Of a DNA stretch of 64,000 nt, positions 14,164-37,342 are shown in pieces. The notes beneath the pieces were generated by a model. It did no database searches, was not told the origin of the DNA, and saw only the letters and a program-made list of their open reading frames with translations. Both the position numbers and the translations under genes were made by a program. This DNA is from an uncultured Lachnospiraceae bacterium. GTDB taxonomy: Bacteria; Bacillota; Clostridia; Lachnospirales; Lachnospiraceae. The DNA lies in assembly GCA_947644545.1 (NCBI GenBank), contig CANRZW010000008.1, forward strand, positions 1-64,000, given 5' to 3'. Within the stretch, counting starts at the first letter, position 1; the number at the start of each line of letters is the position of its first letter.

Positions 14164-15267
14164 ATGGAGAGAGCCATCGTATTTGGATGCGGCAGATACT
14201 ATCAAAGGAAAAAGAAAGTGTTGGAAAGCCGTTACGAGATCATCGGTTTTCTTGACAATATGGTCAAGCCCGGGGAAGTGCGACAGTTTGAAGAGAAAGA
14301 TATGCGAAACCCGGAGAATCTGGATTTTTGGGGAACAGATATCCCGATTCTGTTGATGTCGGCGGCTTTTTTCGATATGTGGGAGCAGCTTCTTGCATTG
14401 GGGGTAGATCCGGGAAGGATCCGCTTTATGGTCACACAGCCGCCGTTTTATGACGAGATAGAGGAGATCTTGGCCAAAACCGTAGAAGAGATCTATGCGG
14501 AAGATCGGGCAATGATATTGAAGGGGAAACAGGAAACCGTCAGCGTGACAACGAAGGAGGAACTGTACCGCTGTCTGCGCACGCTTTTTATGGAGAAAGA
14601 CGCTTATATCGGGCTTACGGCTGCCATGCCGGCCAGACCGGTCAGCAAAAGATTCGGGGCGGAGCGGGGAAAACCGGTGGACAGAGTCTATATAGAACGG
14701 TTCCTAATGGAAAACCAGGATAAGATAACAGGTGTTGTGATGGAAATGGCCGATGCGGGCTATACACAGGCTTTTGGGGTTCAGGTAGAGCGCAGCCTGG
14801 TGCTTCACTTGAACGGCTGGGGCAAAGGCGTCATCAAGGGGGATCTGGAGACCGGGGAAGGCATTCCGGCAGACAGCGTCGATTGCTTTATCTGTACGCA
14901 GACAATCCAGTTTATCTATGACATCCACAGCGCGGTCCGCAATATCTACAGGATGCTCAAGCCGGGCGGCACAGCGCTTGTGACGGCGCACTGCCTGGGA
15001 CAGATCTCTCTGTATGATTATCATAATTGGGGTGAGTATTGGCGTTTTACCGATCAATCCATGCGGAAATTATTCTCGGAAGCGTTTGCGGACAGCGATA
15101 TCATCGTGCAGTCATGGGGCAATGTGAAAACGGCGGTCGCTTATCTGTACGGCTTATGTGCGGAGGATCTGAAAGAGGAAGATTTTGCGCTGCAGGATGA
15201 ACAGTATCCGGTGGTCGTTACGGCGGTGGTCAGAAAACAGTGCATGGAGGATGAGAGACAGCGATGA
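14164..15267 (+). CDS. Rossmann module - SAM methyltransferase
   Basis: The 367-residue protein starts with the cluster's Rossmann module (residues 3-110, AIVFGCGRYYQRKKK then IIGFLDNM). The C-terminal half is a methyltransferase of the type-11 fold: VDCFICTQTIQFIYDIHSAV and IYRMLKPGGTALV are the motif II/III region, though the glycine-rich motif I is poorly preserved. It could methylate a sugar. The start at 14164 has GAGGAGCGG upstream; a longer frame from 14032 would overlap asnB by 92 bases. It overlaps the next gene by 4 bases (ATGA). Confidence 0.75.
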   Translation: MERAIVFGCGRYYQRKKKVLESRYEIIGFLDNMVKPGEVRQFEEKDMRNPENLDFWGTDIPILLMSAAFFDMWEQLLALGVDPGRIRFMVTQPPFYDEIEEILAKTVEEIYAEDRAMILKGKQETVSVTTKEELYRCLRTLFMEKDAYIGLTAAMPARPVSKRFGAERGKPVDRVYIERFLMENQDKITGVVMEMADAGYTQAFGVQVERSLVLHLNGWGKGVIKGDLETGEGIPADSVDCFICTQTIQFIYDIHSAVRNIYRMLKPGGTALVTAHCLGQISLYDYHNWGEYWRFTDQSMRKLFSEAFADSDIIVQSWGNVKTAVAYLYGLCAEDLKEEDFALQDEQYPVVVTAVVRKQCMEDERQR

Positions 15268-16412
15268 AGGATCATATAGATACGTATCAGGAACTGTTGG
15301 ATCAAAAAGATAACTATCGATATGTATGCATGTTTGGCGCGGGATATGCGGCAAGTTACTGGTATCGCTTCCTGGGTGACCTGGGTTACCGGATAGACTT
15401 CTTTGCGGATAACGATCCGGATCTGTGGGGCAAAGTTATGATCGACGGCATTGTGTGCATCCCGCCGGCCGAGCTGGCAGCATTCGGCAGAGAGGTTCTG
15501 TGCCTTGTGTCCACGTCGGCATTGTATACGGAAGAGGTGGCTGCACAGCTGCGAAATATGGGATTAAAGGTAATAGGCCTTGACCAGCACTGGATGAATC
15601 TTGACAGGGTCGTGAGCAGGTATGTGGGGATTGATACTATACTTCCGGTTTATGAGGACGGGGAGATGGGGGAATATGACACGCAGGTGTGTGAACATGA
15701 GAGAATCGCCGTCTACACCTGCATAGTCGGAAATTATGACAGCCTGAAACAGCCGAAGGTAACAGACGGACAATGCGATTATTACTATCTTGGTTTTGAT
15801 CCGCCGGAGAATCCGGGCATCTATCAGTGGATAGATATCAGCCCGTATTTTGAAGGCGGGAAGCCGGATCACACGAGAGTGAATCGGTTTTGTAAACTGC
15901 ATCCGCATCTTTTTTTCAGGGATTACAAGTATTCCATATATTTGGACGGGGGATTTGAGATCAGGAAAAGCATAGCCGGACTGGTGAGAAAGACCGGCAG
16001 TGTCGGCATTGGATTATATGGCAAAGCGTTGACCGGAGACGTTGATACCTACGGGGAGGCGGCGTTTCGGCTGATCACCGGGACGATGAGCGGAGATGAC
16101 AGAAGCGTTGTCATCCGGCAAATGGAGAGATATGCGAAGGAAGGATTCCCAAGAAACTTTGGTTCTTCCCACAACGCCGTTATTGTCAGGGAGCATAACA
16201 AGCCGGCGTGCATCAGGATCATGGATACCTGGTGGAAAGAGATCACAAATGAGTGCAGAAGAGATGAGCTTTCCTTTTTCTATGCGCTATGGAAAAACGG
16301 TTTTTGTCCGAAGGATGTGGGATGCCTGGGGGCGACGCTCAGAGATACACCGGAATTCAGGGAGCTTGGACATAACACGGACATATATCCGAAGATTTAT
16401 AACAAAGGTTAG
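15264..16412 (+). CDS. Rossmann module - DUF616 glycosyltransferase-like protein
   Basis: Residues about 20-110 are the Rossmann module (CMFGAGYAASYWYRFLGDL, FFADNDPDLWGK, IPPAEL). From about 150 the protein matches DUF616 (TOD1/MUCI70-like): AVYTCIVGNYDSLKQP, YSIYLDGGFEIRKSIAGLV and PRNFGSSHNAVIVREH. DUF616 proteins are thought to be nucleotide-sugar glycosyltransferases. The start overlaps the previous stop in ATGA, implying translational coupling. Confidence 0.8.
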   Translation: MKDHIDTYQELLDQKDNYRYVCMFGAGYAASYWYRFLGDLGYRIDFFADNDPDLWGKVMIDGIVCIPPAELAAFGREVLCLVSTSALYTEEVAAQLRNMGLKVIGLDQHWMNLDRVVSRYVGIDTILPVYEDGEMGEYDTQVCEHERIAVYTCIVGNYDSLKQPKVTDGQCDYYYLGFDPPENPGIYQWIDISPYFEGGKPDHTRVNRFCKLHPHLFFRDYKYSIYLDGGFEIRKSIAGLVRKTGSVGIGLYGKALTGDVDTYGEAAFRLITGTMSGDDRSVVIRQMERYAKEGFPRNFGSSHNAVIVREHNKPACIRIMDTWWKEITNECRRDELSFFYALWKNGFCPKDVGCLGATLRDTPEFRELGHNTDIYPKIYNKG

Positions 16413-16432
16413 TGTGAATTATGGAGGGGAAG

Positions 16433-17635
16433 ATGGAAGAGAAAATGACTTTAACTGGAATCATAGATGGGGAAGATACGGTAGTCATATGCGGGTATGG
16501 ACCTGTGGGCAGGTATCTTCAACAGGAGATACAGGAAGACGGAAAGGAAAGAAAAATCGTATTCTGCGATAATAACAAGGCGAAGCACGGGAAAGAAAAC
16601 GGCTTTGAGATTTGCAGCTTTGAGAAAGCATGTGCGGAAAATAAAGAAGCGGTCTTTATCCTGACAAGTCTGGAATATGCTTCCAAAATGAAAAAACAGC
16701 TGCTGGAACTGGGCATTTTCGAGAACAGAATCTATTTCCATGAGATCAGGGAATATTTGCAGGGGCTGATGGACAAGAACATGGCAATGCGTAAGCTGAG
16801 TCCGCAAAATTACCTTAGATTTGAGGTTTCCCTGGCCGAGCACTGTAACCTGAACTGTAAATATTGTTCCCACTTTTCGCCGATTGCCGAACCGGAATTC
16901 CTGAATCTTTCACAGCATGAAAAAGATATGGAAAGACTGTCCTATCTGGTTGACGGAAAATCGGACAAAATATATCTGATCGGCGGAGAACCGCTTCTTT
17001 ATCAGGAAATAATAGAGTGCATGAAAATAACCAGAACATATTTCCCGAAATCCAGGATTATCATCTTGTCTAACGGTCTGTTGATCAACAGTATGAAGGA
17101 TGATTTCTGGCAGGCGTGCAGGGACGATGATATAGAGATCAATATCACGAGATACCCGGTTAAGACGGATTACGAGAAAATCATCGACAGGATAGAGCAG
17201 GAGGGAATTACGGGCGACTATTGCAGAGAGAGCAATGTTTCCTGCCTGTTTGACAAGCTGACGCTGGATTTGGAGGGCAGACAGGATCCCTATGAATCAT
17301 TTACGGGCTGCAATCAGGCAAATCAGTGCCATTTGGTGAAGGACGGCAGGATATACACCTGTTCTTATATTAAATGCGCAGAGCATTTCAACAAATATTT
17401 TCATCAGAATCTGCAGATCACGGAAGATGACTATGTAGACTTGTACAGCGTGAAGAGCGGAAAGGAGATGCTGGAGAAGCTGGCGAAGCCGGCCAGGTTC
17501 TGCAGATATTGTGACGTGAAGGGAAGGATTCACGGTTTGCCGTTTGAAATCAGTAAAAAAGAGATGAGCGAATGGGCAGACGAGTCCACAGCGCAAAGCG
17601 CTTCGGAATGGAGTGAAGAATGTATAAAGTTTTGA
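16433..17635 (+). CDS. Rossmann module - radical SAM protein
   Basis: The 400-residue protein carries a Rossmann module at 12-110 (VVICGYGPVGRYLQQEI, IVFCDNNKAKHGK). A radical SAM core follows: Cys138, Cys142 and Cys145 in CNLNCKYCSHF bind the 4Fe-4S cluster, and YLIGGEPLL is the GGE motif. C-terminal cysteines (CNQANQCHLVKDGRIYTC, FCRYCD) suggest an auxiliary-cluster (SPASM/twitch-like) region. It may oxidise, epimerise or rearrange a sugar or peptide; the substrate is unknown. GGAGG six to ten bases upstream favours ATG 16433 over the ATG at 16421. Confidence 0.82.
   Translation: MEEKMTLTGIIDGEDTVVICGYGPVGRYLQQEIQEDGKERKIVFCDNNKAKHGKENGFEICSFEKACAENKEAVFILTSLEYASKMKKQLLELGIFENRIYFHEIREYLQGLMDKNMAMRKLSPQNYLRFEVSLAEHCNLNCKYCSHFSPIAEPEFLNLSQHEKDMERLSYLVDGKSDKIYLIGGEPLLYQEIIECMKITRTYFPKSRIIILSNGLLINSMKDDFWQACRDDDIEINITRYPVKTDYEKIIDRIEQEGITGDYCRESNVSCLFDKLTLDLEGRQDPYESFTGCNQANQCHLVKDGRIYTCSYIKCAEHFNKYFHQNLQITEDDYVDLYSVKSGKEMLEKLAKPARFCRYCDVKGRIHGLPFEISKKEMSEWADESTAQSASEWSEECIKF
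17598..17608 (+). repeat. GCGCTTCGGAA motif, copy 1
   Basis: An 11-base motif found also at 22520-22530 and 24027-24037. Here it lies at the 3' end of the radical SAM gene, 12 bases before the DUF1919 start, followed by a purine-rich ribosome binding site. Confidence 0.6.
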
Positions 17636-18516
17636 TATGGGGAACTGCAATAGAATATGATCAGTATCTTGTCGCGATCAAATATTATGAGGACAGAAAG
17701 TCGCTGCAGGTCGTAGGCGTTACTTCGGACGATCATTATTATAGCTATTTGGACGGGTATCCGTTTGTTCCCAAACAAGACTTGATGAAGATTTCGTTTG
17801 ACCGGATTCTTATTTGCGCCTCGAAGGAAAAAACGGCAGATATCAGAAGAGAAGCCGCAGCAATGGGAATCGCGGAAGATATTCTGTTTTCCGCGCATAT
17901 TCTCCTGCTGCCGGAGTTCGATTTTGATAACTATATTAAGTTGTCAGAATCGAGAATCTCTATCTTTGCGTGTAATTGCTGGGGCGGACAGGTATATAAG
18001 CGGCTGGGATTAAAAGTGCGTTCTCCCTTTTATAATATGTATGAACTCGTACCCGGATATGTGCGGTTCCTGAAAAACGCGAAGGAAATATTACTGCATG
18101 AGAGACTTCAATTTCGGGAGAAACAATACAATGATGAGCTGTCATTTTATTATCCGGTCTATGATCTGGCGGGAATGGAACTGCACATGAATAATAGTCC
18201 GGACCCGGAAGAGGCGGAAAGAAAATGGTATGAAAGATGTGCCAGGATCAACTGGGATAATTTATTCGTAATGATGTATTCCGACAGCGAGAAATATGCG
18301 GAAGAATTTGCGGATCTGCCTTATCGGAAAAAGATCTGCTTTACAACGAAGGAGACGGACATACCGTATACGTACTGCCTGCCGATCGAAAAGGTCTGTC
18401 CGGATAAAAAGTTTGGGCAGATTGTTCTTGGGAGCGTAACCGGACGGTATAAGTTATATGACCTTATGGAACTGCTTTTGACAGGCAGGCCGGCCAGGGA
18501 GGAGAGAGTGCAGTGA
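17620..18516 (+). CDS. Rossmann module - DUF1919 protein
   Basis: The first about 105 residues are a divergent Rossmann module (KVLIWGTAIEYDQYLVAI) lacking the second glycine. Residues about 115-290 match DUF1919, a family found in exopolysaccharide clusters: FACNCWGGQVYKRLGL, SPFYNMYELVPGYVRFL and YPVYDLAGMELH. Its reaction is unknown; it is often thought to be a transferase. The start overlaps the previous gene by 16 bases, with GGAGTGAAG upstream. Confidence 0.8.
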   Translation: MYKVLIWGTAIEYDQYLVAIKYYEDRKSLQVVGVTSDDHYYSYLDGYPFVPKQDLMKISFDRILICASKEKTADIRREAAAMGIAEDILFSAHILLLPEFDFDNYIKLSESRISIFACNCWGGQVYKRLGLKVRSPFYNMYELVPGYVRFLKNAKEILLHERLQFREKQYNDELSFYYPVYDLAGMELHMNNSPDPEEAERKWYERCARINWDNLFVMMYSDSEKYAEEFADLPYRKKICFTTKETDIPYTYCLPIEKVCPDKKFGQIVLGSVTGRYKLYDLMELLLTGRPAREERVQ

Positions 18517-18560
18517 CCGGTAAGGCAGGATTGTGATGATCGGTCATTGAGGGACACAGG

Positions 18561-19727
18561 ATGAGGATATCAATCATAACGGTCTGTTATAACAGAGTGG
18601 AGACGATCGAAAGGACGATCAGAAGCGTGATCAGCCAGGATTACGAAGAGAAGGAATATATTATAATCGACGGCGGCTCTTCTGACGGTACCGTGGATAT
18701 TATCAGGCGCTATGAGGGAGATCTTGCCTGCTGGATCAGTGAGAAAGACGGTGGGATCTACGAAGCCATGAATAAGGGCATCCGTTATGCGACAGGGGAA
18801 GTCATCGCTTTTCTGAACAGTGATGACTGGTATGAGGATAATATTCTGTCGGAAACAGCGCATGGATTTGAGGATGCGAAGACGCAGATTTTGTGCGGTG
18901 ATGTACGCTGTCATCATGACGGCACCGTTTCAAGATACCGCGTAAACAGGGAACCGGAGGAAGAATTAAGATTCCGCATGGTATATTGGCAGCCGGCAAT
19001 GTTTGTGAGAAGAGAATTGTTTGAGAGGTACGGGGGATTTGATACCCGGTACCGGATAGCGGCTGACTATGACTGGATGCTGAGGATGTATGACCGGCAT
19101 ATTGCGATATCGCTGACCGACAGGGTGTTGACGAATTTCAGTTATGGAGGCATCTCGACGCGGGCGGATATGCTCCGGGTACAGGCCGAAGAGGGAAGGC
19201 AGGCAGCGCTTCTGGCGCTAAGCAGGAATCAGGAGCTGTCGGCAGAACAGAAAGAGCAGTGGAAGAAAAGAATCGAGAACGAATATGACAGGGGCATAGA
19301 GAATTATAAGTTTAAAAAACTGTTAAGGGAGATAGCAGGCGGAGACGGGCAGATGATTCTGACGCGGGTCAGAAGCGCTTTTCGGAACGATGCCTGTGAG
19401 ATATTCGGGTGCGGGATGATTTTTCGGGAGATTGGCGGTCTGCTAAGGCGTCTGCAGATTTCGGTAACCGCATTGTGGGACAACGATCCGGGCAAATGGG
19501 GGCAGCGTATTGACGGAATACAGATCAGGAATCCGGCGCAGTTGAAGCCCGGACAAAATACGGTGATCATTGCATCTGTAGATTATGAGAGGCAGATCGG
19601 GCTTTTGCTGGAACAAAAGGGATTTAAGAAAGGCGAAGATTACCTTCCTTACAGTGAATTGAGAAGGCGGATCTTGCGGGCTGCGGAGGAAAAAGGAATT
19701 GATCAGGGTGATGTATGTCATAAATGA
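18561..19727 (+). CDS. GT2 glycosyltransferase - Rossmann module
   Basis: Residues 1-about 230 are a GT-A family 2 transferase: ISIITVCYNRVETIERTI, IIIDGGSSDGTVDII, ISEKDGGIYEAMNKGI and FLNSDDWYED, the subfamily seen in WcaA/PGL-like colanic-acid enzymes. A charged linker (230-275) leads to a C-terminal Rossmann module (277-388: EIFGCGMIFREIG, ALWDNDPGKWGQ, IRNPAQL). It overlaps the next gene by 29 bases. Confidence 0.9.
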   Translation: MRISIITVCYNRVETIERTIRSVISQDYEEKEYIIIDGGSSDGTVDIIRRYEGDLACWISEKDGGIYEAMNKGIRYATGEVIAFLNSDDWYEDNILSETAHGFEDAKTQILCGDVRCHHDGTVSRYRVNREPEEELRFRMVYWQPAMFVRRELFERYGGFDTRYRIAADYDWMLRMYDRHIAISLTDRVLTNFSYGGISTRADMLRVQAEEGRQAALLALSRNQELSAEQKEQWKKRIENEYDRGIENYKFKKLLREIAGGDGQMILTRVRSAFRNDACEIFGCGMIFREIGGLLRRLQISVTALWDNDPGKWGQRIDGIQIRNPAQLKPGQNTVIIASVDYERQIGLLLEQKGFKKGEDYLPYSELRRRILRAAEEKGIDQGDVCHK

Positions 19728-21324
19728 ATCCGGGCTGGGAGGGGCAGAACAGTCTTTGCTGGATATGCTTACTGCGATCGGAAGCAGAGTGAGCCCGGTG
19801 GTTATTATTCCTTCCGGCGGCATGATAGAGGAGCGCCTGCGGCAGATGGAGATTACTTATTATATTGTGCCGTTTGAAACGGATTATCGGCGGATCGGTT
19901 TGTATTCCGGGCAGGAAGAGGCTGCTGTTTATCGAAAGAGTTTTCGGGCCGCGCTGCAGTTAAGAGAGATTATAAGGCAGGAAAAAATTCAGATTGTACA
20001 TACCAATTCGAGTGTCAGCAATGCGGGGGCTATCGCGGCAATGATGGAGAAGATTCCGCATATATGGCATATTCGGGAATTTCTGGAAGAAGATTTCGAC
20101 AGTGAATTTGTCAATAAAGAATTGAAAAAGGAACTGTTTGCCTGCGCCGACGGCATGATCAGTATTTCGGAGTGCATTCGGGACGCGTATCAACGAAAAT
20201 ATCATGCAGATTCCATATGTATTTATAACGGATTGGACAGGGAACGGTTCTTAGAGAGCATTTCGTCAGAGAAATCCGGTAATCGTTTCCTGCTCGCCGG
20301 TAATATCACACCGGGCAAGGGGCAGCTGGAAGCCGTTAAGGCGGTAGAAAGGCTCGCGATGCAGGGAATAGAAGTGCATCTTTATATCGTGGGGACTGCC
20401 GGGAACGATTGGTACAGATGGCTGTTGAAGAAATATGTGCGGGAGCACGGACTGGAATCCTGTGTCCATATCCTGGGATTTAGAAAGGATTTGCGCAGCT
20501 TAAGAGAGAAATGTGGATTTGCGATCGTCAGTTCCAGAATGGAAGCGTTGGGACGGGTAACGATCGAAGCCATGCTTGCAGGCTGCGTAGTCATAGGCGC
20601 AGACACGGGAGGCACGGCGGAGATCCTGGGTCAGGACGGATCGAGAGGATATCTGTACCGGCAGGGCAGCGATGAGGATTTGGCGCGCGTAATGCGTTAT
20701 GCGATGGAACGAAAAGAGCAGAACAGGGAGATTCGGAAAACCGCACAGGCGTATGCCCTTTTAAAGTTCGATCTGAACGGATTCGTCGGAAAGATAACCG
20801 GTCTGTACGAGAGGGTTTTGGAACATGGAGAGGATACCCTGGCCGAAAGCAGAAAGGAGCTGCTGCAAAGATTATACAGGCAGTATGAGGCGGTAAAGGA
20901 CACAGATACCGATGGAAGGCCAATGGCCGGTGAGAACACGGATAAGAGTCTGCTGCGCGGCAAGATGATACAACGCTGGCTGAGCCTTAAGCTGGAAGGG
21001 AAATCATTAGCAGACGGGCTGTTGCAGAGGGGAATCCGCTCCGCCGCCCTATATGGAATGGGGTATCTTGGCTGTTGTCTCTACGATGAACTGGATAACG
21101 GGGGCATCCGCATAAGTTATGTGATGGACAGGCGGCCGGTCGATGCTGATGGTATCGTAAAAGTGGTACGCATTGAGGACGCGCTTCCCCAAACGGACGG
21201 GATCATCATAACGGTATTGGGAGACAATCGTGATCTGCAGAAACTGATAGAGGCAAAGTGTGATGCTAAAGTAATGCTGCTAAGCGAACTTATGGATTGG
21301 TGTGAGAATGGAGAAGATCTGTGA
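19699..21324 (+). CDS. GT4 glycosyltransferase - Rossmann module
   Basis: A 541-residue GT-B enzyme with GLGGAEQSLLDML near the N terminus, FLLAGNITPGKGQLEAV and the donor-binding SSRMEALGRVTIEAMLAG (E-x7-E). After a linker rich in Arg, Glu and Lys (about 375-435) the C-terminal Rossmann module follows (440-541: AALYGMGYLGCCLYDEL, YVMDRRPVD). Translation starts at TTG 19699, five bases after a GGAGGAAAAAGG-type site and inside the end of the preceding gene; no ATG is as well placed. Confidence 0.88.
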   Translation: MIRVMYVINESGLGGAEQSLLDMLTAIGSRVSPVVIIPSGGMIEERLRQMEITYYIVPFETDYRRIGLYSGQEEAAVYRKSFRAALQLREIIRQEKIQIVHTNSSVSNAGAIAAMMEKIPHIWHIREFLEEDFDSEFVNKELKKELFACADGMISISECIRDAYQRKYHADSICIYNGLDRERFLESISSEKSGNRFLLAGNITPGKGQLEAVKAVERLAMQGIEVHLYIVGTAGNDWYRWLLKKYVREHGLESCVHILGFRKDLRSLREKCGFAIVSSRMEALGRVTIEAMLAGCVVIGADTGGTAEILGQDGSRGYLYRQGSDEDLARVMRYAMERKEQNREIRKTAQAYALLKFDLNGFVGKITGLYERVLEHGEDTLAESRKELLQRLYRQYEAVKDTDTDGRPMAGENTDKSLLRGKMIQRWLSLKLEGKSLADGLLQRGIRSAALYGMGYLGCCLYDELDNGGIRISYVMDRRPVDADGIVKVVRIEDALPQTDGIIITVLGDNRDLQKLIEAKCDAKVMLLSELMDWCENGEDL

Positions 21325-22502: not shown

Positions 22503-22519
22503 GGCGTCCTTTGCATAAA

Positions 22520-22530
22520 GCGCTTCGGAA
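22520..22530 (+). repeat. GCGCTTCGGAA motif, copy 2
   Basis: In the gap before the GT2-methyltransferase gene, 12 bases ahead of its ATG; preceded by AAA as in copy 1. Confidence 0.6.
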
Positions 22531-22541
22531 AGAGGGAAAGC

Positions 22542-23975: not shown

Positions 23976-24026
23976 AAAATTCTGTTCGTGCGTCCGCAAG
24001 TATTCCTTCGGAAAACTGTGCGCAAG

Positions 24027-24037: not shown

Positions 24038-24057
24038 GGGAGGGGGAGACAAGGGAA

Positions 24058-28451: not shown

Positions 28452-28505
28452 TCCATGGCGTTCCGGGACAGACGCCTCATCATTTGGATACGGAGAAAAA
28501 CCTAT

Positions 28506-31500
28506 ATGGATATAATACAGGACGCGATCAGCCGCAACCGGCATATTTGTGCCTATAAGTTTGCCAAAGAACAGACTTGGGATACCTTTCGGCGGGAGGC
28601 TTCCGGGCGGGATGTCTATTTATACGGGCTGGGCAATGCGGCCGGCTATTTTGCAGAGAAATACAGTGAAACGGTGAGAATCTGCGGAGTGATCGACAAC
28701 TACGTGAATCTGCAGGGGTTTTGTATGGGGGATTATCTGCCGGAGGCGGTGGAGACGCCTTATGAGCGGATACCGATCTATGATGCCGGGCTGCTTAAGT
28801 CCTTGCCTGCGGAGAAAACGATTATTCTGATCTCCAATATCAACGCCTATGAAGAGATCGCAGAGCAGACGGCAGCCTTTGGCCTGGAATCCTTTGCACT
28901 GCTCCTTCTGGAGGCGGATCAGAGGCTCCATGTGAAGCCGGGGGATGACAAAGAGCGGGAGATGCCAAGGCCTCAGAGTCTGCCGCAGCGTAAAAGCGCA
29001 TATGCCAGGAAGTGCTGCAGCCTGCCTGTTGCGGAGAACAAGATCGTATTCATGATCGGAACGTATGGGGGACACGCGAGAGCGATCACGAGGGCGCTTG
29101 GCAGGAAAGGATTGGTCAGGGGAAAACGGGGCGGCAAAGAAGAAAGCGGGAAGTATGGCGGTCTTGATATCGTCTGGCTGGTGGAGGATCTGAGGATCGA
29201 ATTGCCGGCAGGCGTGCGGCCGGTGCTTATCAGCAACTGGAAGCGGTATCTTTATGAGATGGAGACGGCCCGGATCTGGGTTTTCGATATTCTTGTGCCG
29301 GAATATGTCCGTAAGCGGGAAGAGCAGATCTATATTCAGACCAAACACTGGCCGAGCATAACGTTAAAGAAATTCTATCTGGATGATCCCTCGACAACGG
29401 GAACAGAGGACGCAAGGGAACTTGTGAAACGTAATGGTAAGAGCGCGGATTATTTCTTCGTCGGCAGCGATTTTGATCTGCGGACATGTAAAAGCGGGTT
29501 CGCCTGCGACGGTGCGTTTGTCTTTACCGGGTCGCCGCGAACAGACGTTCTGTTTGACCGGGACAGCAGGAACAAAATTTATACGAAATATCATATAGCA
29601 GAAGAGACTCATACACTGTTGTATGCGCCGACCTTCCGTTATGATCAGGCACAGAGGAAAAAAACGGCAGTACAGGGATTGGACGTTAAGAGACTTCCGG
29701 ACCGGCTGGAGCAGCATTTCGGCGGAAAATGGAAGATCTTGTGCAGGGAACATCCCTCGCTTCGGAGCACAGGAATCAGGGAAGCCGACGATCGGGAGAA
29801 TACAAAGGATAATCGTCATACGGATAAGCGGGTAATCGATGTGAGCGGTCATGATGACAGCCAGGAGCTTGTCGCGGCCTGTGATCTGCTGCTCACCGAT
29901 TATTCAAGCATTCTGTTTGAAGCGGCATTTGTGGGGAAACCCGTATTTTTGTTTGCGCCTGACAGGAAACGGTATCTGACGGAAGAAAGAGAACTCTATC
30001 TGGATTATGAGACGCTGCCATTTCCGACCGCGGAGACAAATGAGGCGCTGGGCACGGTCATCGCAGAGTTTGATTACGATGAATATCAGCAGAAAGTTGC
30101 TCTTTTTACAAAGAGGTATGGCGTTCATGAGGATGGGCAGGCCGGCGAAAGGGCAGCGGCGTTTATGCACTCGCTTTTATCATACAGATCAAAGATAACG
30201 ATTGTTATTCCTGTCTACAACACGGCTGCCTGTCTGCCGCGCTGTTTGGAAAGCGTTATGAACCAGACGTATCGGAATATCGAGATTATTCTGGTGGATG
30301 ACGGCTCGACTGATGATTCCCTGCGGATCTGTGAGGAATATGCGAAGAGAGACGCAAGGATTGTTCTGATCAGCCAGGAGAACGGCGGAAATACTGCGGC
30401 GAGGAAAAGGGGACTGATGGCCGGTACGGGAGAATATGTGATGTTTGTGGATTCGGATGACTGGATCGGGCAGGATCTTGCCATGCTGCTGTACAGGCAG
30501 GCGGAGGAAAATGCCGCGGATCTGGTGATTTCCGATGTACATATGAGCCGCGTGGGCGGCAGGGAAGTGGAAAGAAACAACCTGATCGCCGCCGGGGTGT
30601 ACCGGCATCCGAAGGAGGCGGTAAAGAAACTGTTTTTCGATTATGAAGACTGTAGATACGGGATTCTTCCCTATCTCTTTGCCAAACTGTATCGGAGAGA
30701 TCTGGTGGTCCGCGCCATGGAGGAGATTGATGACAGGATCCGGTATGACGAGGACAGGGCCCTGGTGTGGACTTGCCTTATGCAGAACATAACGGCTGTT
30801 TTTACGCAGTGCAGGGAATACCATTACTGCCAGAGGGAGGAAGGGCTGGTCCGGGCCAGAGACGAGATGTATCTTGCGAAGATCAACTATTTCTATTGTT
30901 ATATGCGCCGGTTGTTTGCACAGGAAGACGAGATCTTAAGAAAGCAGTTGGAAAGATATGTGATCTGGAATGTGGAGATCGCATTCCGGTGGAAGCTGGG
31001 TATGTCAAAGGAGGCTTATCCAAAGGCTCTGCCAAACGGTCAGGGAAGGTTAAGGGCAGGCGTTTCCGGAAGAAAGGAGGCCGTAGACAACCCGATCAAA
31101 GTCTCGGTGATCATACCGTCCCTGAATGCGGAGCCTTATATCAGACAGTGTCTTGACAGCGTGAGGACACAGACACTGGCAGAGATCGAGATTCTCTGTG
31201 TGGACGCCGGCTCCACGGACAAAACGGCTGTTATTATACAGGAATATGCGGCGCTTGATAACCGGATCCGTTACAGGAAGTCGCTGCGGCAAAGCTACGG
31301 TTATCAGGTAAATCTGGGGATGGATGCGGCCAGAGGGGAGTACATAGGCATCGTTGAACCGGATGATTATGTTACGGAGGAAATGTTCGAGAAACTGTAC
31401 TGTGCCGCGCACGACAATGAACTGGATTATGTGAAATCCAATTTCTATCAGTTCCTGGATTACAGGGGGCGGCGGCATTACCGGAAGTGGGAGAGAAGCT

Positions 31501-32450
31501 ATTGGGGAAAGCCGGATGATGTGTTTCATAAGGTGATCCGCTTAAAAGAGACGCCGCAGGCGTTAGTCTATGGCGATCATGGCAATATCTGGTCGGGGAT
31601 TTACAGACGGGCATTTCTGGAGGAGCAAAAGATCAGATTCCATGAGACACCGGGCGCGTCCTATCAGGACACAGGCTTTGCCATCCTGTGTACGCTGGAG
31701 GCGGAGCGGGTCATGTTCCTGGATGACTGTCTTTACCGTTACAGACAGCACTGTGAGGGCGCCTCCGTCCGCTCGCAGGACAAGCACAGTCAGATTATTG
31801 CGGAGTATGCATGGATCTGGGAGCAGATGCAGTACAGAGGGTATACCGACGAGGTGTGCCGCAGCTTCTATATGGCGATGAAATTCCATTCCTATCTGTG
31901 GAATTATAACAGGCTGCAGAAGGAAGGCCGCAGCCGCTTTCTTGCCGGTCTGGCGCAGGATGAGATGCTGGAATTTCGGGAGGAGAGCATTGGATTTCGG
32001 ATTCCCGAGAAAGAAAGAATGCTGCGTCTGTGGCAGGGGGATTGGGGCGAAGTGGAGGCCTGCAATGCGGCGCAGGAAAAGAGAAGGCGCAATACGGCGG
32101 AGCTGCTTAGCCTGTTGGAGAAGGCCGCACAGATCGTGGTCGTCTGTGCGGGAGAATGGGGCAGATCCCTGTTGAAGCTGTATGGGAAACTGGGCGCGGA
32201 GAACATCTGCGCGGTCTGTGATAATGCACCCGCCATCCAGGGCAGATCTGTGGAGGGTCTGGAGGTCGTGAGCGTGGAGAGGGCGGTCAGGGAACATCCG
32301 GACGCCTGGTTTGTGATCGCCGGGAAATACCATGGGGAGGAACTGCTGGAACAGTTAAGAAGCCTGGGAATTGATGCGGCAAGGATCTACAGATGCAGGG
32401 AAGAAGCCTATACGGGTGACAACCTGCTGAAATTTCTACTGGCCCGGTAG
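28506..32450 (+). CDS. Five-domain glycan polymer synthase (Rossmann - CDP-glycerol transferase - GT2 - GT2 - Rossmann)
   Basis: A 1314-residue protein. Order: Rossmann module (36-135, VYLYGLGNAAGYFAEKY); CDP-glycerol transferase-like domain (about 180-550: HTLLYAPTFRYDQ, KILCREHPSL, ACDLLLTDYSSILFEAAF); first GT2 (560-840: KITIVIPVYNTAACLPRCL, VMFVDSDDWIGQDLA); second GT2 (864-1190: VSVIIPSLNAEPYIRQCL, GIVEPDDYVTEEMFEKL); second Rossmann module (1209-1314: IVVVCAGEWGRSLLKLYG, AVCDNAPAIQGR). Three transferase activities could build a repeat of two sugars plus a polyol phosphate. GGAGAAAAACC ahead of 28506 favours that ATG over 28455, which lacks a ribosome binding site. All GT motifs look intact. 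Confidence 0.88.
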   Translation: MDIIQDAISRNRHICAYKFAKEQTWDTFRREASGRDVYLYGLGNAAGYFAEKYSETVRICGVIDNYVNLQGFCMGDYLPEAVETPYERIPIYDAGLLKSLPAEKTIILISNINAYEEIAEQTAAFGLESFALLLLEADQRLHVKPGDDKEREMPRPQSLPQRKSAYARKCCSLPVAENKIVFMIGTYGGHARAITRALGRKGLVRGKRGGKEESGKYGGLDIVWLVEDLRIELPAGVRPVLISNWKRYLYEMETARIWVFDILVPEYVRKREEQIYIQTKHWPSITLKKFYLDDPSTTGTEDARELVKRNGKSADYFFVGSDFDLRTCKSGFACDGAFVFTGSPRTDVLFDRDSRNKIYTKYHIAEETHTLLYAPTFRYDQAQRKKTAVQGLDVKRLPDRLEQHFGGKWKILCREHPSLRSTGIREADDRENTKDNRHTDKRVIDVSGHDDSQELVAACDLLLTDYSSILFEAAFVGKPVFLFAPDRKRYLTEERELYLDYETLPFPTAETNEALGTVIAEFDYDEYQQKVALFTKRYGVHEDGQAGERAAAFMHSLLSYRSKITIVIPVYNTAACLPRCLESVMNQTYRNIEIILVDDGSTDDSLRICEEYAKRDARIVLISQENGGNTAARKRGLMAGTGEYVMFVDSDDWIGQDLAMLLYRQAEENAADLVISDVHMSRVGGREVERNNLIAAGVYRHPKEAVKKLFFDYEDCRYGILPYLFAKLYRRDLVVRAMEEIDDRIRYDEDRALVWTCLMQNITAVFTQCREYHYCQREEGLVRARDEMYLAKINYFYCYMRRLFAQEDEILRKQLERYVIWNVEIAFRWKLGMSKEAYPKALPNGQGRLRAGVSGRKEAVDNPIKVSVIIPSLNAEPYIRQCLDSVRTQTLAEIEILCVDAGSTDKTAVIIQEYAALDNRIRYRKSLRQSYGYQVNLGMDAARGEYIGIVEPDDYVTEEMFEKLYCAAHDNELDYVKSNFYQFLDYRGRRHYRKWERSYWGKPDDVFHKVIRLKETPQALVYGDHGNIWSGIYRRAFLEEQKIRFHETPGASYQDTGFAILCTLEAERVMFLDDCLYRYRQHCEGASVRSQDKHSQIIAEYAWIWEQMQYRGYTDEVCRSFYMAMKFHSYLWNYNRLQKEGRSRFLAGLAQDEMLEFREESIGFRIPEKERMLRLWQGDWGEVEACNAAQEKRRRNTAELLSLLEKAAQIVVVCAGEWGRSLLKLYGKLGAENICAVCDNAPAIQGRSVEGLEVVSVERAVREHPDAWFVIAGKYHGEELLEQLRSLGIDAARIYRCREEAYTGDNLLKFLLAR

Positions 32451-32493
32451 ACACAGCGGCCGGGAAACAGAAGCAACAGAAAGGAGACAGGCA

Positions 32494-33627
32494 GTGAGAT
32501 CGGCAATGAAAACGGACAGCGATAAGCGGCAATGGGTCTACGAAAGTCTGTGTGATGACACATCGAAATCTATCTTTGAGAACAGAAGGAAATACGCGGA
32601 GAGCGGAGAATGGCGTTATATCGAAAATATCGTCGCTGCCATACCGGAATATGCATCCAACGTCTACTATGGAGGGAAGGAAAAAGTACTGTACGAGAAG
32701 CTGAGAGAGTACCGTAAGAAGATCGTGCTTTTCGGGTATGGCTACAGAGCGCGGAAGATTCTTTGCGGTTTGCATGCAGAAGCTGTCGAGGTTGCTTATG
32801 TCGTTGACTCCGATGTCAGGAAGCAGGGCGCTCTGGCGGGGAAGATACCGATCGTTTCCTTAAGTGAGATTATGGCGCGTGAACATGTCGATGACCTTGT
32901 GTTTCTGATCACTTCGGCCTGGCATGTCGAAGAGATACGGTCACAACTGCAAAGAGCAGGCTGTAAGTACATAGAGAACGCAAACGAGTATACGAAGTGT
33001 TTCCGGCAGGACCAGTATTTTGACCGCGGCGGATTTCTGGAGTTTGCAGAGCAGGAGATCTTTGTGGACGGGGGATGCTTTGATCTGGAAACGACGCGGA
33101 TCTTCAGAAAGCTGTTGGAAGAGGAAGGGAAGACGTGCAGCAAGGTGTACGCATTTGAGCCGGATCGGAACAACTATTTGACCTGCAGAGAGAAGATAGA
33201 TCATTGCGGGTGGCAGAATATCAGCCTGGTCAATGCCGGATTATGGCGTGAAGATACCTGGGTAAAACTGGAGAATGCGGGAACGGCAGGCGCGCATCTT
33301 GTGGAAGCGGGGGAAGACGAGAAACATTGTGTGCGCGCTGTTTCCCTGGATACGGTTGTGGATGGGAAAGACAAGATCTCCCTGATCAAGCTGGATATCG
33401 AAGGCGCCGAACTGGAGGCCCTGCAGGGGGCAGAGAGGATTATCCGCAGAGACAGGCCGAAACTCGCGATATGTATTTATCATAAGAAGGAAGATTACTG
33501 GCAGATACCGTACTATCTGAAAAGTCTGGTGCCGGAATACCGGTTCTATATCCGGCATTACAGTAATTATTCTGCGGAAACGGTATTGTATGCCGTTGTT
33601 AATGAAAGGGAAAGAAATCAGGAATAG
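32494..33627 (+). CDS. Rossmann module - FkbM family methyltransferase
   Basis: The 377-residue protein starts at GTG 32494, seven bases after AAAGGAG. Residues 70-170 are the Rossmann module (IVLFGYGYRARKILCGL, YVVDSDVRKQGA, IPIVSLSEI). Residues 186-365 are FkbM-type SAM methyltransferase: EIFVDGGCFDLETTRIF (motif I), KVYAFEPDRNNY, and SLIKLDIEGAELEALQG, the FkbM signature. FkbM proteins O-methylate sugars or polyketides. It is likely a glycan-modifying enzyme. Confidence 0.9.
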   Translation: MRSAMKTDSDKRQWVYESLCDDTSKSIFENRRKYAESGEWRYIENIVAAIPEYASNVYYGGKEKVLYEKLREYRKKIVLFGYGYRARKILCGLHAEAVEVAYVVDSDVRKQGALAGKIPIVSLSEIMAREHVDDLVFLITSAWHVEEIRSQLQRAGCKYIENANEYTKCFRQDQYFDRGGFLEFAEQEIFVDGGCFDLETTRIFRKLLEEEGKTCSKVYAFEPDRNNYLTCREKIDHCGWQNISLVNAGLWREDTWVKLENAGTAGAHLVEAGEDEKHCVRAVSLDTVVDGKDKISLIKLDIEGAELEALQGAERIIRRDRPKLAICIYHKKEDYWQIPYYLKSLVPEYRFYIRHYSNYSAETVLYAVVNERERNQE

Positions 33628-33701
33628 AACTACAAACAAATATAAACATAAATACAGACAGAAGTACAGATCACAACTTTAAGGAAAGTAAGGGAAGAAC
33701 A

Positions 33702-36065
33702 TTGCACAGAGCAGAGGAAGATAAAATAACCCCGCAGGAACTGATCGCGGAACTGCCAAAAGGGCTGATCAAGTGGTATCCGTTTAAGGCGGATCAGTGT
33801 GCGCTTTATATCACCGGGAATACGGAACTTGACCGGGCGGTGGAAGAAGCCCTGCGGGAGAGCGGCATGACGGTAGATTGTGCAGACGTGACAGGACTGC
33901 GGGAAAGCCCGAAAGGGAAGCGGTACGACTACATAGTCATTACTATGGCGTTAGAGCAGACAGGAGACATGGAGGAGGCGGTCGGCATTCTGAAAACGGC
34001 GCGGCAGCTTCTGCAGGCAGACGGCAGACTGCTCCTGGGGCTGAATAACCGCCTCGGAATCCGCTATTTTTGCGGAGACAAAGATCCTTATACCGGGCGG
34101 AATTTTGATGGGATAGAAGACTATGTGCGGGCGGATGTGTCTGTTTTTGACCGCAGGAACGGGCGCTGTTACGCGAAGGCACAGATAATACAGATGCTGC
34201 ATGAGGCAGGATTTGTCCATCATAGGTTCTATTCGGTATTTCCGGCGCTGGAGAGGCCGCAGATTCTGTTTGCGGAGGATTTTACACCGGGAGAACAGCT
34301 GGATATCCGGATTTTTCCGCAGTATTTCTGTGCGGATACGGTATTTCTGGAAGAAGAGATGTTATACGATACGCTGCTGCGCAATGGGATGTTCCATCCC
34401 ATGGCCAACGCCTTCTTCATTGAGTGCGCGCTTGACGGGGAGGTATCCGGCAGGAAACAGATCACGATCTCCATGGACAGGGGCAGGACAAACGCCATGT
34501 TTACGATCCTGCGCGGAGACGGCCTGGTGGAGAAAAGGCCGGTCTATGCGGAAGGAAAATGGAAGCTGAGGGCGCTGATGGAGAATACGGCCGATCTGGA
34601 ATGCCATGGGGTAAGGATGCTGCCCCTGGAATTGAAAAAGGATGCGTGTATCATGCCTTATGTGGAGAAACAGTCGGCGCTTGCATATCTGCGAGAGCTG
34701 GCGCTTCGGGATCAGGAACGGTTCCTGCAGGAGCTGGACCGGTTCTGGGAGATTATCCTGCATTCCTCCGAGCATGTTCCCTATGAGGAGATCGACTGGG
34801 AGAATTATGCGCCGGGCTGGGATGAGCGGGCGGCGGATGACCCGTTGAAGGACCAGTGGAAGAAGCTTGCTTTCGGGACGAAAGAGGAACGCGACAGCAT
34901 CGGCGTAATCTTGAAAAGGGGCTATATAGACTTGATTCCGCTAAATTCCTTTTATGACAAAGAAGGCTATAGTTTCTATGACCAGGAGATGTATGTGGAA
35001 AATCTTCCGGCGAAAACGATCCTGCACAGGACGCTGACAGCCATCTATCTGGGGAACCTGAATCTGTACCGCATTCTTCCTGAAAAACAACTGCGGGAAC
35101 GTTACGGACTGAATGAATGCAAACAGCTGTTTGGCAAATTTTCCGGTCAGTTTTTAAACAAGCTCAGAAATGACCGTATTCTGCGGGACTATCACAAGAC
35201 GGTACGGAAGGATGCGGGTCGGATTCATTCCAACCGCCAGCGGATGAATTATTCGGCACAGGAGTATGACCGTATCTTCCGGGATCTCTTTTCCGGGACC
35301 GATAACCGCCGGCTCTATCTGTTTGGAACGGGAGAATATGGCCGGTTGTTCCTGTCACAGTTTGGTAAGGACTGTGACATTGCCGGTTTTCTCGATAACG
35401 ATCCGGCGAAATGGGATACAAAGCTGCAGGGCATACCGGTCTGCCCGCCGGCGAAATTGGAGGCTTTAGAGCCGGGAACTTATAAAGTGATCATCTGCAT
35501 CAAAAATTACAGGACCGTTATGGAGCAGCTGACGAAAATGGGAATCACCAATTACAGCGTATATGATGCCGGCCTGTCGTATAGCAGGCCCGTAACGGTG
35601 CGTCCGGACAACGGGGCGACCGGACAGGATGCCAGGAAGAAATATCATGTGGGATATGTGGCGGGTGTCTTTGACCTCTTCCACATCGGACATCTGAATC
35701 TGCTGCGGCGGGCCAAAGAGCAGTGTGATCATCTGATTGTGGGCGTGGTGACGGATGAAGGGGTAGTAAGGCATAAGCATACGGTCTGTGTTGTTCCCTT
35801 TCAGGAACGGATCGAGATCGTGCGCGCCTGCCGATATGTGGACGAAGCGGTGGAAATACCGCCGGATCAGTATGATACGGATGAAGCATACAGAAGATAT
35901 CGGTTCGACGCACAGTTTTCCGGAAGCGATTACGACGGCAGCCCAGGGTGGGCGGCGAAGAAGGATTTCCTTCGCCGACAGGGATCGGATCTGGTGTTTT
36001 TCCCCTACACAGCGTCCACCAGCTCCACAAAACTTAAGGAGTTGATCAACAGAAGGCTGCGGTAG
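33702..36065 (+). CDS. Methyltransferase-like - kinase-like - Rossmann - cytidylyltransferase fusion
   Basis: A 787-residue protein starting at TTG 33702 behind AGGGAAGAAC. Residues 1-about 200 have a degenerate SAM-methyltransferase fold (DYIVITMALEQTGDMEEAV, LLQADGRLLLGLNNRLG). Residues about 250-480 look like a small-molecule kinase: Asp410 and Asn415 in YIDLIPLNSFY and Asp427 in YSFYDQEM are spaced like the catalytic and metal-binding residues of aminoglycoside-kinase-like folds. A Rossmann module follows (535-640: LYLFGTGEYGRLFLSQF, GFLDNDPAKWD). Residues 648-787 are a cytidylyltransferase (GVFDLFHIGHLNLL with HIGH; TASTSSTKL near the end). The methyltransferase-kinase order recalls WbdD, the O-antigen chain terminator. 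The kinase call is inference. Confidence 0.75.
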   Translation: MHRAEEDKITPQELIAELPKGLIKWYPFKADQCALYITGNTELDRAVEEALRESGMTVDCADVTGLRESPKGKRYDYIVITMALEQTGDMEEAVGILKTARQLLQADGRLLLGLNNRLGIRYFCGDKDPYTGRNFDGIEDYVRADVSVFDRRNGRCYAKAQIIQMLHEAGFVHHRFYSVFPALERPQILFAEDFTPGEQLDIRIFPQYFCADTVFLEEEMLYDTLLRNGMFHPMANAFFIECALDGEVSGRKQITISMDRGRTNAMFTILRGDGLVEKRPVYAEGKWKLRALMENTADLECHGVRMLPLELKKDACIMPYVEKQSALAYLRELALRDQERFLQELDRFWEIILHSSEHVPYEEIDWENYAPGWDERAADDPLKDQWKKLAFGTKEERDSIGVILKRGYIDLIPLNSFYDKEGYSFYDQEMYVENLPAKTILHRTLTAIYLGNLNLYRILPEKQLRERYGLNECKQLFGKFSGQFLNKLRNDRILRDYHKTVRKDAGRIHSNRQRMNYSAQEYDRIFRDLFSGTDNRRLYLFGTGEYGRLFLSQFGKDCDIAGFLDNDPAKWDTKLQGIPVCPPAKLEALEPGTYKVIICIKNYRTVMEQLTKMGITNYSVYDAGLSYSRPVTVRPDNGATGQDARKKYHVGYVAGVFDLFHIGHLNLLRRAKEQCDHLIVGVVTDEGVVRHKHTVCVVPFQERIEIVRACRYVDEAVEIPPDQYDTDEAYRRYRFDAQFSGSDYDGSPGWAAKKDFLRRQGSDLVFFPYTASTSSTKLKELINRRLR

Positions 36066-36142
36066 CCGTCACCGGCGCCTGTTTCCGAAGGGAAGAGGAG
36101 GAGTGCGCGTGCACAGGCATGTGGGACGAAAGGAGTAGCAGG

Positions 36143-37342
36143 ATGCAGGTCAGTTTTTCTACAAAGAGCATATACGGTCTTGGCAGGCTTGGCTCCGATC
36201 CGGACAGTGTTCTGGATCGGAATGCTTACGGCATCACGGTGGATGCTGAAAGCTTCTATTCCCGGAATGCTCTGGAGGGATATGGGGTAACGGCATTTGA
36301 TGCAGGCGGTGCAAGGGAGCGGTGCAGGAAGCTGCTGCGGGATTGTGCCAGGCATGGCGTGTCAATAAGCGCCATGCGGATGCCCCGCCTGAGATGGGAT
36401 ACGAAGCGCACGGATTTACGGGAACTGCTGCTGCAAATCGGGACGGAAGGAATTGACGCCTGCGCCGGGGCAGGCTGTGGCAATCTTGTGATCCAGCCGC
36501 TTTTCTCAGGGATTCCGCGGGCTTTGCTGTGGCAGGAGAATCACCGCTATTATGCGGCTCTGGGACGGAAGGCAAGACAGGCCGGCGTGCGGATCCTGTT
36601 GGAAAACCAGTGCGGCCATGTGAATGGCCATCTTGTCAGGGGCGTCTGCGCCGATGCCGCCGTGGCGGCGGAATGGATCGATACCTTGAATGAAGAACTG
36701 GAAGCGGAGGTCTTCGGCTTCTGCCTTGACACGCAAGCCTGCAGCCTGTGCAGGCAGGATATGGGAGAGATGGCGGCTTATCTGGGAGAAAAGGTCAAAG
36801 CCGTGCTGGTCAGGGAGTGTGACGGAGTCCATGAGGCCTGCAGGCTTCCCTTTACCGGCATAAACGCGGCCGGATATGATATGGACTGGTCAGGTTTGGT
36901 CCGGGGATTAAGGAAGTCTGCGTTTGACGGCATCCTGATCATGGATGCCTCGGATACCCTGCGGGGATTTTCCCATCTGTTCCGTCCCCAGGTATATACG
37001 CTGATCCGTTCGGTGGCGGATTATCTGCAGTGGCAGATCGGCATGGAACGGTGTATCCGGGAGTCTGCGGCCAGAGTGCTTTTTGGCGCCGGTAAGATGT
37101 GCCGTCAGTATATGGCGCATTACGCGGAGAACTATCCGCCCCTTTTTCTGTGCGACAATGATCCGTCGCGCTGGGGGACGAAGGTATGCGGCGTGGAGGT
37201 AAGACCGCCGGAAGCATTAAGGGATCTGCCGGAGGAGGTTGTGGTCATGATCTGTAATACTTTCTATGAAGAGACTGCGGCGCAGCTTAAGGCGCTGGGG
37301 GTAAAAAAGATCGGAGCGTTCAGTGATGAGTGCCTGCCGTAA
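36143..37342 (+). CDS. Sugar isomerase/epimerase-like TIM barrel - Rossmann module
   Basis: Residues 1-about 300 resemble xylose-isomerase-like TIM barrels (AP endonuclease family 2): VRILLENQCGHVNG and EVFGFCLDTQACSL occupy positions where the family has metal-binding Glu and Asp-x-x-His. The latter site reads DTQAC, with the usual His missing, so metal binding may be altered. The C-terminal Rossmann module (310-399) reads VLFGAGKMCRQYM, LCDNDPSRWGTK, VRPPEAL. AAAGGAG lies before ATG 36143; an ATG at 36119 is less likely. Confidence 0.78.
   Translation: MQVSFSTKSIYGLGRLGSDPDSVLDRNAYGITVDAESFYSRNALEGYGVTAFDAGGARERCRKLLRDCARHGVSISAMRMPRLRWDTKRTDLRELLLQIGTEGIDACAGAGCGNLVIQPLFSGIPRALLWQENHRYYAALGRKARQAGVRILLENQCGHVNGHLVRGVCADAAVAAEWIDTLNEELEAEVFGFCLDTQACSLCRQDMGEMAAYLGEKVKAVLVRECDGVHEACRLPFTGINAAGYDMDWSGLVRGLRKSAFDGILIMDASDTLRGFSHLFRPQVYTLIRSVADYLQWQIGMERCIRESAARVLFGAGKMCRQYMAHYAENYPPLFLCDNDPSRWGTKVCGVEVRPPEALRDLPEEVVVMICNTFYEETAAQLKALGVKKIGAFSDECLP

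Follow-up and report, generated by a model that had tools for sequence, protein, structure and literature searches.

A run of genes on the forward strand of an uncultured Lachnospiraceae bacterium (GenBank assembly GCA_947644545.1, contig CANRZW010000008.1, positions 1 to 64,000; this whole stretch of 64,000 nucleotides is called the window here) encodes 16 proteins between positions 14164 and 37342, and 15 of the 16 bear the same kind of Rossmann module of ~95 residues; one protein bears two, which makes 16 copies. We propose that the run encodes enzymes for a flagellin glycan, that these enzymes share a module for a nucleotide-type ligand that regulates and/or assembles them, and that the one copy standing free of any enzyme, the bare copy, is a tether or regulator. 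We put the chance that this reading is right at somewhat less than even, roughly 0.45. Proteins are numbered by their order along the run (e.g., P15 and P16; Table 1), and P17 is the next gene downstream.

Are the 16 copies homologous? The first-pass annotation of the window had claimed sixteen copies in fifteen proteins, and all of them were located where it had placed them. Scored with a model built from the other 15, each copy exceeded the best of 2,000 shuffles (16/16). The E values ran from 9e-19 to 8e-4 for 15 copies, the methyltransferase copy being second weakest (8e-4), and the weakest, that of the DUF1919 protein, reached 0.022 versus 0.52 for its best shuffle. Pairwise BLAST directly connects many copies (best E value, 4e-20, in a small set), and the lone copy and the two-copy protein that the annotation had singled out were both seen by module profile and by BLAST. 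A profile search of the entire genome yields 28 matches at an E value of ≤0.1: the window has 16, a second cluster (on contig C21) has 10, and two lie elsewhere, namely, a 230-residue frame on C5 and a weak match on C1. A further frame with a weak module (L191:1849-4344; 1.5e-5) lies between the C21 cluster and its flagellin and suggests that this second cluster extends beyond what was counted.

The AlphaFold2 (AF2) model of the bare copy's module, built from a 119-row alignment, is a single confident fold with the Rossmann order of strands and helices (predicted local distance difference test score, 91.3; predicted template modeling score, 0.85). Foldseek comparison with the PDB returns, among the matches listed, mostly Rossmann-type proteins, including dehydrogenase-type Rossmann domains, 2G6T, 3NKL, and Rex, at modest E values (best, 7.8e-4). 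The module profile ranks Rex first (5zz5, 1.5e-11), followed by 3NKL (2.8e-11), 2G6T (9.7e-7), WbaP (3e-5), and VioB (9e-4). Judged by these model and profile comparisons, the module is a Rossmann domain of the NAD(P)/CoA-binding type and a relative of Rex, of the 3NKL domain, and of the WbaP accessory domain. The annotation had likened the fold to that of PglD; the Rossmann fold and a weak kinship to PglD stood, whereas PglD was ruled out as the nearest relative since Rex and 3NKL score far better.

Each of these relatives resembles the module in part. Rex has a GxGxxG-type loop and a strand-2 acid, as does the module, and its NADH-binding domain is the best solved match, but Pfam reports no Rex DNA-binding domain at an E value of 0.1 in the 15 module proteins, whose partners are enzymes. 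The 3NKL domain, the UDP-D-quinovosamine 4-dehydrogenase domain of Vibrio fischeri, is a similarly small domain (Foldseek TMq, 0.74) but is part of a single nucleoside diphosphate (NDP)-sugar enzyme; we know of no system of tagged proteins built on it. The WbaP accessory domain (PF13727) is likewise a Rossmann-type accessory domain on a glycan enzyme, and the NKWYS copy of the run matches the NCBIfam WbaP model weakly (E value, 0.002). That domain sits in one membrane enzyme, a phosphoglycosyl transferase, whereas here the module is on most cluster proteins and also occurs bare; neither PF13727 nor the sugar-transferase domain is reported by Pfam at an E value of 0.1 in the 15 module proteins. 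NCBIfam, run on 10 window proteins, gives weak Rossmann-type matches to the module only (Rex, NeuD, and WbaP).

No one Pfam model spans the window copies as a family. Methyltransf_14 (PF08484; cutoff, 23.5) is a Rossmann-like domain that belongs to sugar C-methyltransferases, whereas here the domain is on unrelated enzymes; the P10 copy scores 30.7, three copies fall slightly under the cutoff (21.1 to 21.8), and the other 12 are not reported at an E value of 0.1. C2185-like_N (PF22674; cutoff, 27), the CAC2185-type domain of DUF1919 proteins represented by 2G6T, is passed by the DUF1919 copy alone (52.5), the remaining 15 window copies having no match at an E value of 0.1. PglD_N (PF17836; cutoff, 23.4), the N-terminal domain of PglD and NeuD, has no window match in the genome scan and one in the genome, on C21. 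Among 115 module proteins of related clusters (the 131 described below minus 2 large proteins and 14 window proteins), 4 match PF22674, 5 match PglD_N, and 20 match NeuD at 1e-3, and no PglD-type acyltransferase partner appears among the best 25 of their 55 families.

The residues most faithfully kept are those at the predicted ligand edge. A glycine loop after strand 1 and an acid after strand 2 make up the usual nucleotide site of the Rossmann fold, and in the AF2 model G10 to G12 directly follow strand 1 and D34 directly follows strand 2. In the 119-row alignment, G10 and G12 are each present at 95% and D34 is present at 87%; over 135 modules, counted where a residue was aligned, the values are 95% (G10), 93% (G12), 56% (G15), and 83% (D34). 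The shared pattern in the first-pass annotation thus holds for the glycine loop and the Asp and is looser than written, the third glycine being kept in just 56%. The glycine loop and the strand-2 Asp are among the most strongly conserved module positions in the orthologue groups of P10, P11, P14, P15, and P16: P10 and P11 orthologues keep W360, G361, G366, D385, and G397; P14 orthologues keep G81, G83, and D105; and P15 orthologues keep, among others, L540 to G544, D565, N566, W571, and C599 to K601. The P12 group keeps the glycine loop and has no Asp. In P16, the mean frequency of the commonest residue is 0.79 in the module versus 0.57 in the barrel, 28/92 module columns versus 37/315 barrel columns reach 95%, and 15 of the 22 invariant columns fall within the module. 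The ligand edge is kept best across copies, even in the protein that has no enzyme, which favors a ligand-binding regulator over a passive tag.

Is the module simply part of each enzyme? Its partners differ by Pfam, and it is found N terminal, C terminal, and in the middle, which bears out the view that unrelated catalytic domains have been tagged in a modular way. The 132 module proteins of 11 clusters fall into 53 partner groups by single-linkage BLAST, a procedure that may mix subfamilies; of 135 modules, 60 are N terminal, 57 C terminal, and 10 internal, and 8 are in proteins of <190 residues. When cluster proteins lacking the module are grouped as well, the module in the GT2-like group (37 cluster proteins) is C terminal in 23, N terminal in 5, in the middle in 2, at both ends in 2, and absent in 5; within the GT4-like group (14 cluster proteins), it is N terminal in 6, C terminal in 5, and absent in 3. 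P17 is a paralogue of the P16 barrel that lacks the module, and P17 relatives in two other loci (L196 and L140) match the P16 barrel at 29 to 30% identity. Given these varying placements and the module-less paralogue, the module is probably a recruited tag that the same kinds of enzymes have gained more than once. The idea that it is an integral enzyme part in all homologues therefore fails for the GT2-like and GT4-like partners. We do not extend this rejection to DUF1919, whose N terminus already bears a related domain in Pfam (PF22674) and the PDB (2G6T). Half of the modules (67 of 134) have their closest relative on a protein of the same partner group, which in 62 of these cases belongs to another cluster, so many fusions are old and those modules travel with their enzymes. 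A cluster-specific sequence code among modules was considered as well, and the effect is tiny: modules on different partners are 19.5% alike within a cluster versus 19.1% between genomes (21 of 2,000 permutations reach the difference).

The arrangement recurs widely. At least one module match at 1e-6 is found in 23 of the 25 genomes of the genus (the window's included) versus 4 of 16 other genomes of the order. Of the 178 genes called in 11 clusters from nine genus genomes, 131 encode the module, as do 496 of 649 in the spans of 80 named loci; spans run from the first to the last module gene, which inflates the tagged fraction, and the 80-locus count gave module frames priority (494/648 without that priority and 337/491 minus two edge genes per span). 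The 80 loci were those ranked highest among 491 relatives of P15, itself a module protein, and their labels include many Lachnospiraceae, with Clostridium, Eubacterium, Hungatella, and others, two Selenomonadaceae, and one Paenibacillaceae. Named relatives of P15 and P16 point to Lachnospiraceae as the family of the window's organism too. Longest-frame gene calling replaced the window's bare copy by an antisense frame, so the run enters the 11-cluster count as 14/16, 15/16 being correct. Polytopic membrane proteins are scarce: by a crude hydropathy rule applied to cluster-span genes, at least five hydrophobic spans occur in 0 of 16 called genes of the run, 1 of 178 in the 11 clusters, and 2 of 649 in the 80 loci. 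In a sample of the phylum, 256 of 398 genomes match, and 18 of them (the window's included) have five or more modules and are termed module rich here; up to 12 candidates were scored per genome, making a count of 12 a lower bound. Many genomes with a single match probably owe it to Rex, judging from frame length alone.

Which polymer would such clusters decorate? In 14 of the 17 module-rich genomes from outside the genus, a gene of the flagellin family (PF00669) lies on the same contig as the listed modules, 1.2 to 43 kb away; in two others (G414 and G272) the hits are on contigs other than those of the listed modules, and the third (G416), for which no module positions were listed, is counted as unknown. 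The 17 genomes were searched in two batches of nine and eight, and distances for the eight, like those within the genus, were read by eye for listed modules only. The chance of a flagellin lying so near ranges from 0.012 to 0.21 per genome for nine of the 14. PF00669 also picks up hook-filament junction proteins, so the nearest hit need not be filament flagellin. Flanks of the 80 P15 loci contain a flagellin-like frame in 9 cases versus ~3.4 expected, a modest excess that assumes 6.5 flagellins per 3.4-Mb genome. Individual loci are closer still: P17, P16, and P15 relatives (58, 38, and 44% identity, respectively) come after a pair of flagellin genes in L196, with a first gap of ~150 bp; in L140 (labeled Selenomonadaceae), P15, P16, and P17 relatives (47, 48, and 56%) are followed ~80 bp on by a flagellin-like frame; flagellin lies 159 bp from P15 in L144 and ~1.2 kb from it in L103; and in L193, L194, and L195, genes for flagellin, FliD, and Maf-type proteins accompany the module genes, as do FliW in L194 and DegT in L195. 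With modules ≤45 kb from flagellin in 14 of 17 genomes from outside the genus, we read the clusters as flagellin-glycosylation islands; for the window cluster, flagellin would be the target by the example of these relatives, most strongly for the P15-P16-P17 core. Two side observations concern the flagellins themselves. A giant one (L197:13668-19124) is a frame of ~1,820 residues with a flagellin N terminus ~10 kb past a module cluster, and the window's genome (G000) has 10 flagellin-family hits, on C4, C9, C20, C21, C23, C34, and C37, with several frames of 467 to 706 residues.

Flagellin-glycosylation islands are already known (PMC5109656), as is the fold family of the module, and the known islands use comparable kinds of enzymes for flagellin: that of Geobacillus has FkbM methyltransferases and a glycerol-phosphate cytidylyltransferase (PMC5109656), and the type A locus of Clostridioides difficile has nucleotidyl- and phosphotransferases (PMC10714395). 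The word "Rossmann" is absent from the main texts of both accounts, and their passages on these islands describe no shared tag. Among the matches listed in the open-licence PMC literature, there is no description of one module tagging most enzymes of an island or of a bare family.

The bare copy belongs to a conserved family. Standalone-size module frames number 27 in the fetched loci, 17 with and 10 without a helix around an invariant Trp (W-helix). The family alignment has 17 rows, 16 of them distinct, with one further near-identical W-helix frame excluded; Y71, G72, G77, D96, and T126 are invariant, and the usual layout is a mostly hydrophobic N terminus, the W-helix, and then the module. 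By a crude hydropathy rule, the N terminus is hydrophobic in 14 of 16 family members, compared with 2 of 70 other proteins in which the module begins beyond residue 60 and 3 of 47 module-less cluster proteins. A profile partly built from these same members finds 18 full-length copies, spread over 15 of the 25 genus genomes, and none in the 16 other genomes of the order. Their listed places are mostly in or near module clusters, and the family is also present in L091, L116, L120, L124, L126, L127, L129, and L157. We speculate that the bare copy is a membrane tether or a regulator.

In total, we posit a cytoplasmic system for building a glycan, with a flagellin-glycosylation island as the likeliest identity of the run; almost all of its proteins are fused to one small Rossmann module, which would act in trans to catalysis. 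A common nucleotide would bind the module, e.g., NAD(H), or the uridine mono- or diphosphate (UMP or UDP) or cytidine monophosphate (CMP) released by the transferases, and binding would set enzyme activity and/or self-association. Enzymes that act successively on flagellin could thereby respond together and be gathered, with the bare copy serving as a regulator or membrane tether. A shared, nucleotide-responsive, coordinating module is proposed because the ligand edge is conserved and because there are two precedents. The WbaP accessory domain holds most of the dimer contacts of its enzyme and is stabilized by UMP, UDP, and uridine triphosphate (UTP) (PMC10942596), which makes it a precedent for regulation and assembly at once; FlmG is a flagellin glycosyltransferase with a separate N-terminal flagellin-binding domain (PMC7591256).

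If this is true, then many gut Lachnospiraceae and their relatives decorate their flagella using enzymes with one plug-in module. Flagellin sugars may affect motility and the immune recognition of gut commensals. The module might serve to colocalize enzymes, and its presence would explain how clusters swap enzymes that nonetheless keep working together and would offer one handle, ligand or interface, on many different glycan enzymes. The same testable hypothesis would also extend to dozens of poorly annotated clusters, where it takes in about three quarters of the genes.

Several observations weigh against this proposal. The window's contig (114,746 bp) holds none of the genome's 10 flagellin-family hits. 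Of 12 genus genomes examined, 6 (G000, on C21, and G002, G006, G007, G008, and G012) have such a hit and a listed module on one contig, ~10 to 77 kb apart; the C21 cluster has one on its contig, ~30 kb away, and in G007 the contig has a single listed module. A flagellin-family gene is present in 18/18 module-rich genomes versus 307/380 others (P = 0.024), and that all module-rich genomes are flagellate lends little support by itself. About 17% of modules lack Asp34, and 44% lack the third glycine. Conservation of the module exceeds that of the remaining protein in P16 alone; in P15 the two are equal (0.59), and in P10, P11, P12, and P14 the module falls slightly below the rest. The near-nil similarity of modules within a cluster leaves module-module docking without real sequence support. 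As for the tether, the bare family was assembled after inspection of the N termini, and the window's own bare copy has a borderline hydrophobic N terminus (1.55) by the crude hydropathy rule.

Could the system be more specific than we propose? In a nucleotide-gated metabolon, the membrane-tethered bare module would be a hub on which tagged enzymes assemble through their modules upon binding the nucleotide, and dozens of interchangeable enzymes could be plugged in by acquiring the tag. We regard this fuller picture as doubtful.

Alternatively, the module may be a substrate handle that grips the nucleotide part of a shared nucleotide-linked intermediate, such as a cytidine diphosphate (CDP)-linked residue made by P15, which would let unrelated catalytic domains work on one common carrier-bound substrate. 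Enzymes carrying related domains (Methyltransf_14, VioB, and 3NKL) act on NDP-sugars, and the region has two proteins with cytidylyltransferase domains and two with glycerophosphotransferase domains; a route via CDP-threonine has been proposed for the type A flagellin glycan of C. difficile (PMC10714395). Against this reading, classical NDP-sugar enzymes are found among the module-less cluster proteins (two short-chain dehydrogenase/reductase epimerases and one DegT aminotransferase among 44, i.e., 47 minus three doubtful antisense or overlapping frames); none is among the best 25 of 55 Pfam families for the 115 module proteins. Glycosyltransferases, moreover, have donor sites of their own, and in the bare copy there is no catalytic domain for a handle to assist. 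We consider the handle unlikely.

In docking alone, the modules would have no small-molecule role and would link the enzymes to one another, to flagellin or its chaperone, or to the bare copy. This would account for unrelated enzymes being fused to the module at one end or the other and for the presence of a bare copy in 15 of the 25 genomes of the genus, and it has precedents in the flagellin-binding domain of FlmG (PMC7591256) and in MurG as a scaffold (PMC6420597). Against a pure docking tag, the strongest constraint falls on ligand-edge residues, the bare family included, and within-cluster similarity is only ~0.5 points over background. The first-pass annotation had suggested docking, a scaffold, or shared ligand sensing; the conserved ligand edge favors the last of these, and docking stays hypothetical. 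As a full explanation, docking also seems improbable to us.

A lineage habit would mean that these are old accessory Rossmann domains on many glycan enzymes of Clostridia and relatives, with functions unrelated or lost, and that their density reflects no system. Related domains are partly in Pfam already (PF08484, PF22674, and PF17836), the module sequences are very divergent (mean column identity, 17%), half of them travel with their enzymes, and conservation of the module does not exceed that of the remaining protein in five of six orthologue groups. Against these stand the tagging of some three quarters of cluster genes, the fusion of the same catalytic groups at both ends, the conserved bare protein, and the P16 module, which is more conserved than its barrel; we judge a mere habit to be quite improbable. 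Given that many-span hydrophobic proteins are nearly absent from the cluster spans, a capsule or wall polymer as the product is disfavored, though it keeps some probability for the window.

Table 1. Proteins of the run, with P17 and two upstream neighbors (window coordinates)
Position	Strand	Protein	Module	Basis
14164..15267	+	SAM methyltransferase (Methyltransf_11)	N-terminal, 14164-14472	Pfam; module profile
15264..16412	+	TOD1/MUCI70 (DUF616) glycosyltransferase-like	N-terminal, 15309-15605	Pfam; BLAST; profile
16421..17635	+	Radical SAM protein	N-terminal, 16472-16762	Pfam; BLAST; profile
17620..18516	+	DUF1919 protein	N-terminal, 17620-17919; sole copy above C2185-like_N cutoff	Pfam; profile
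18561..19727	+	GT2 glycosyltransferase	C-terminal, 19386-19676	Pfam; BLAST; profile
19699..21324	+	GT4 glycosyltransferase	C-terminal, 21031-21309; W-helix subfamily, as bare copy	Pfam; profile
21321..22502	+	NKWYS putative capsular polysaccharide synthesis protein (Sulfotransfer_1 just E 0.053)	N-terminal, 21369-21689	
22542..23975	+	GT2 + methyltransferase	None detected; sole such protein of run	Pfam; no profile match
24058..24528	+	Bare copy: borderline hydrophobic N terminus, conserved W-helix; conserved family member	24244-24525	
24561..25925	+	P10, GT2 glycosyltransferase	C-terminal, 25620-25889; above Methyltransf_14 cutoff	Pfam; profile
25945..27294	+	P11, GT2 glycosyltransferase	C-terminal, 27004-27276	Pfam; BLAST; profile
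27291..28451	+	P12, GT2-like (slightly under Pfam cutoff)	C-terminal, 28149-28430	Pfam; profile
28506..32450	+	Glycerophosphotransferase + two GT2 domains	Both ends, 28605-28913 and 32124-32411	Pfam; profile
32494..33627	+	P14, FkbM methyltransferase	N-terminal, 32713-33003	Pfam; BLAST; profile
33702..36065	+	P15, uncharacterized N-terminal part, C-terminal cytidylyltransferase domain	Middle, 35304-35582	Pfam; profile
36119..37342	+	P16, xylose-isomerase-like TIM (triosephosphate isomerase) barrel	C-terminal, 37064-37339	Pfam; BLAST; conservation
37426..38394	+	P17, P16-barrel paralogue	None	Pfam; BLAST
6815..8158	+	Cytidylyltransferase fused to GFO/IDH/MocA oxidoreductase, upstream neighbor	None	
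8987..10249	+	CDP-glycerol-type glycerophosphotransferase, upstream neighbor	None	

Upstream of the run, a phage-type integrase (2597-3877) immediately precedes the glycan genes and is itself preceded by a BspA-type leucine-rich repeat protein (3-2282), so the window cluster may be part of a mobile or variable island. The first of the glycan genes (4283-6802; 839 residues) has no Pfam match at 0.001. The cytidylyltransferase-oxidoreductase fusion adjoins a GDPD phosphodiesterase and a glycerophosphotransferase, possibly a CDP-polyol branch without modules. In P15, the first ~500 residues (33702-35300) match no Pfam family except for very weak methyltransferase matches, although 78 of the 80 loci retrieved with P15 preserve the protein across most of its extent.

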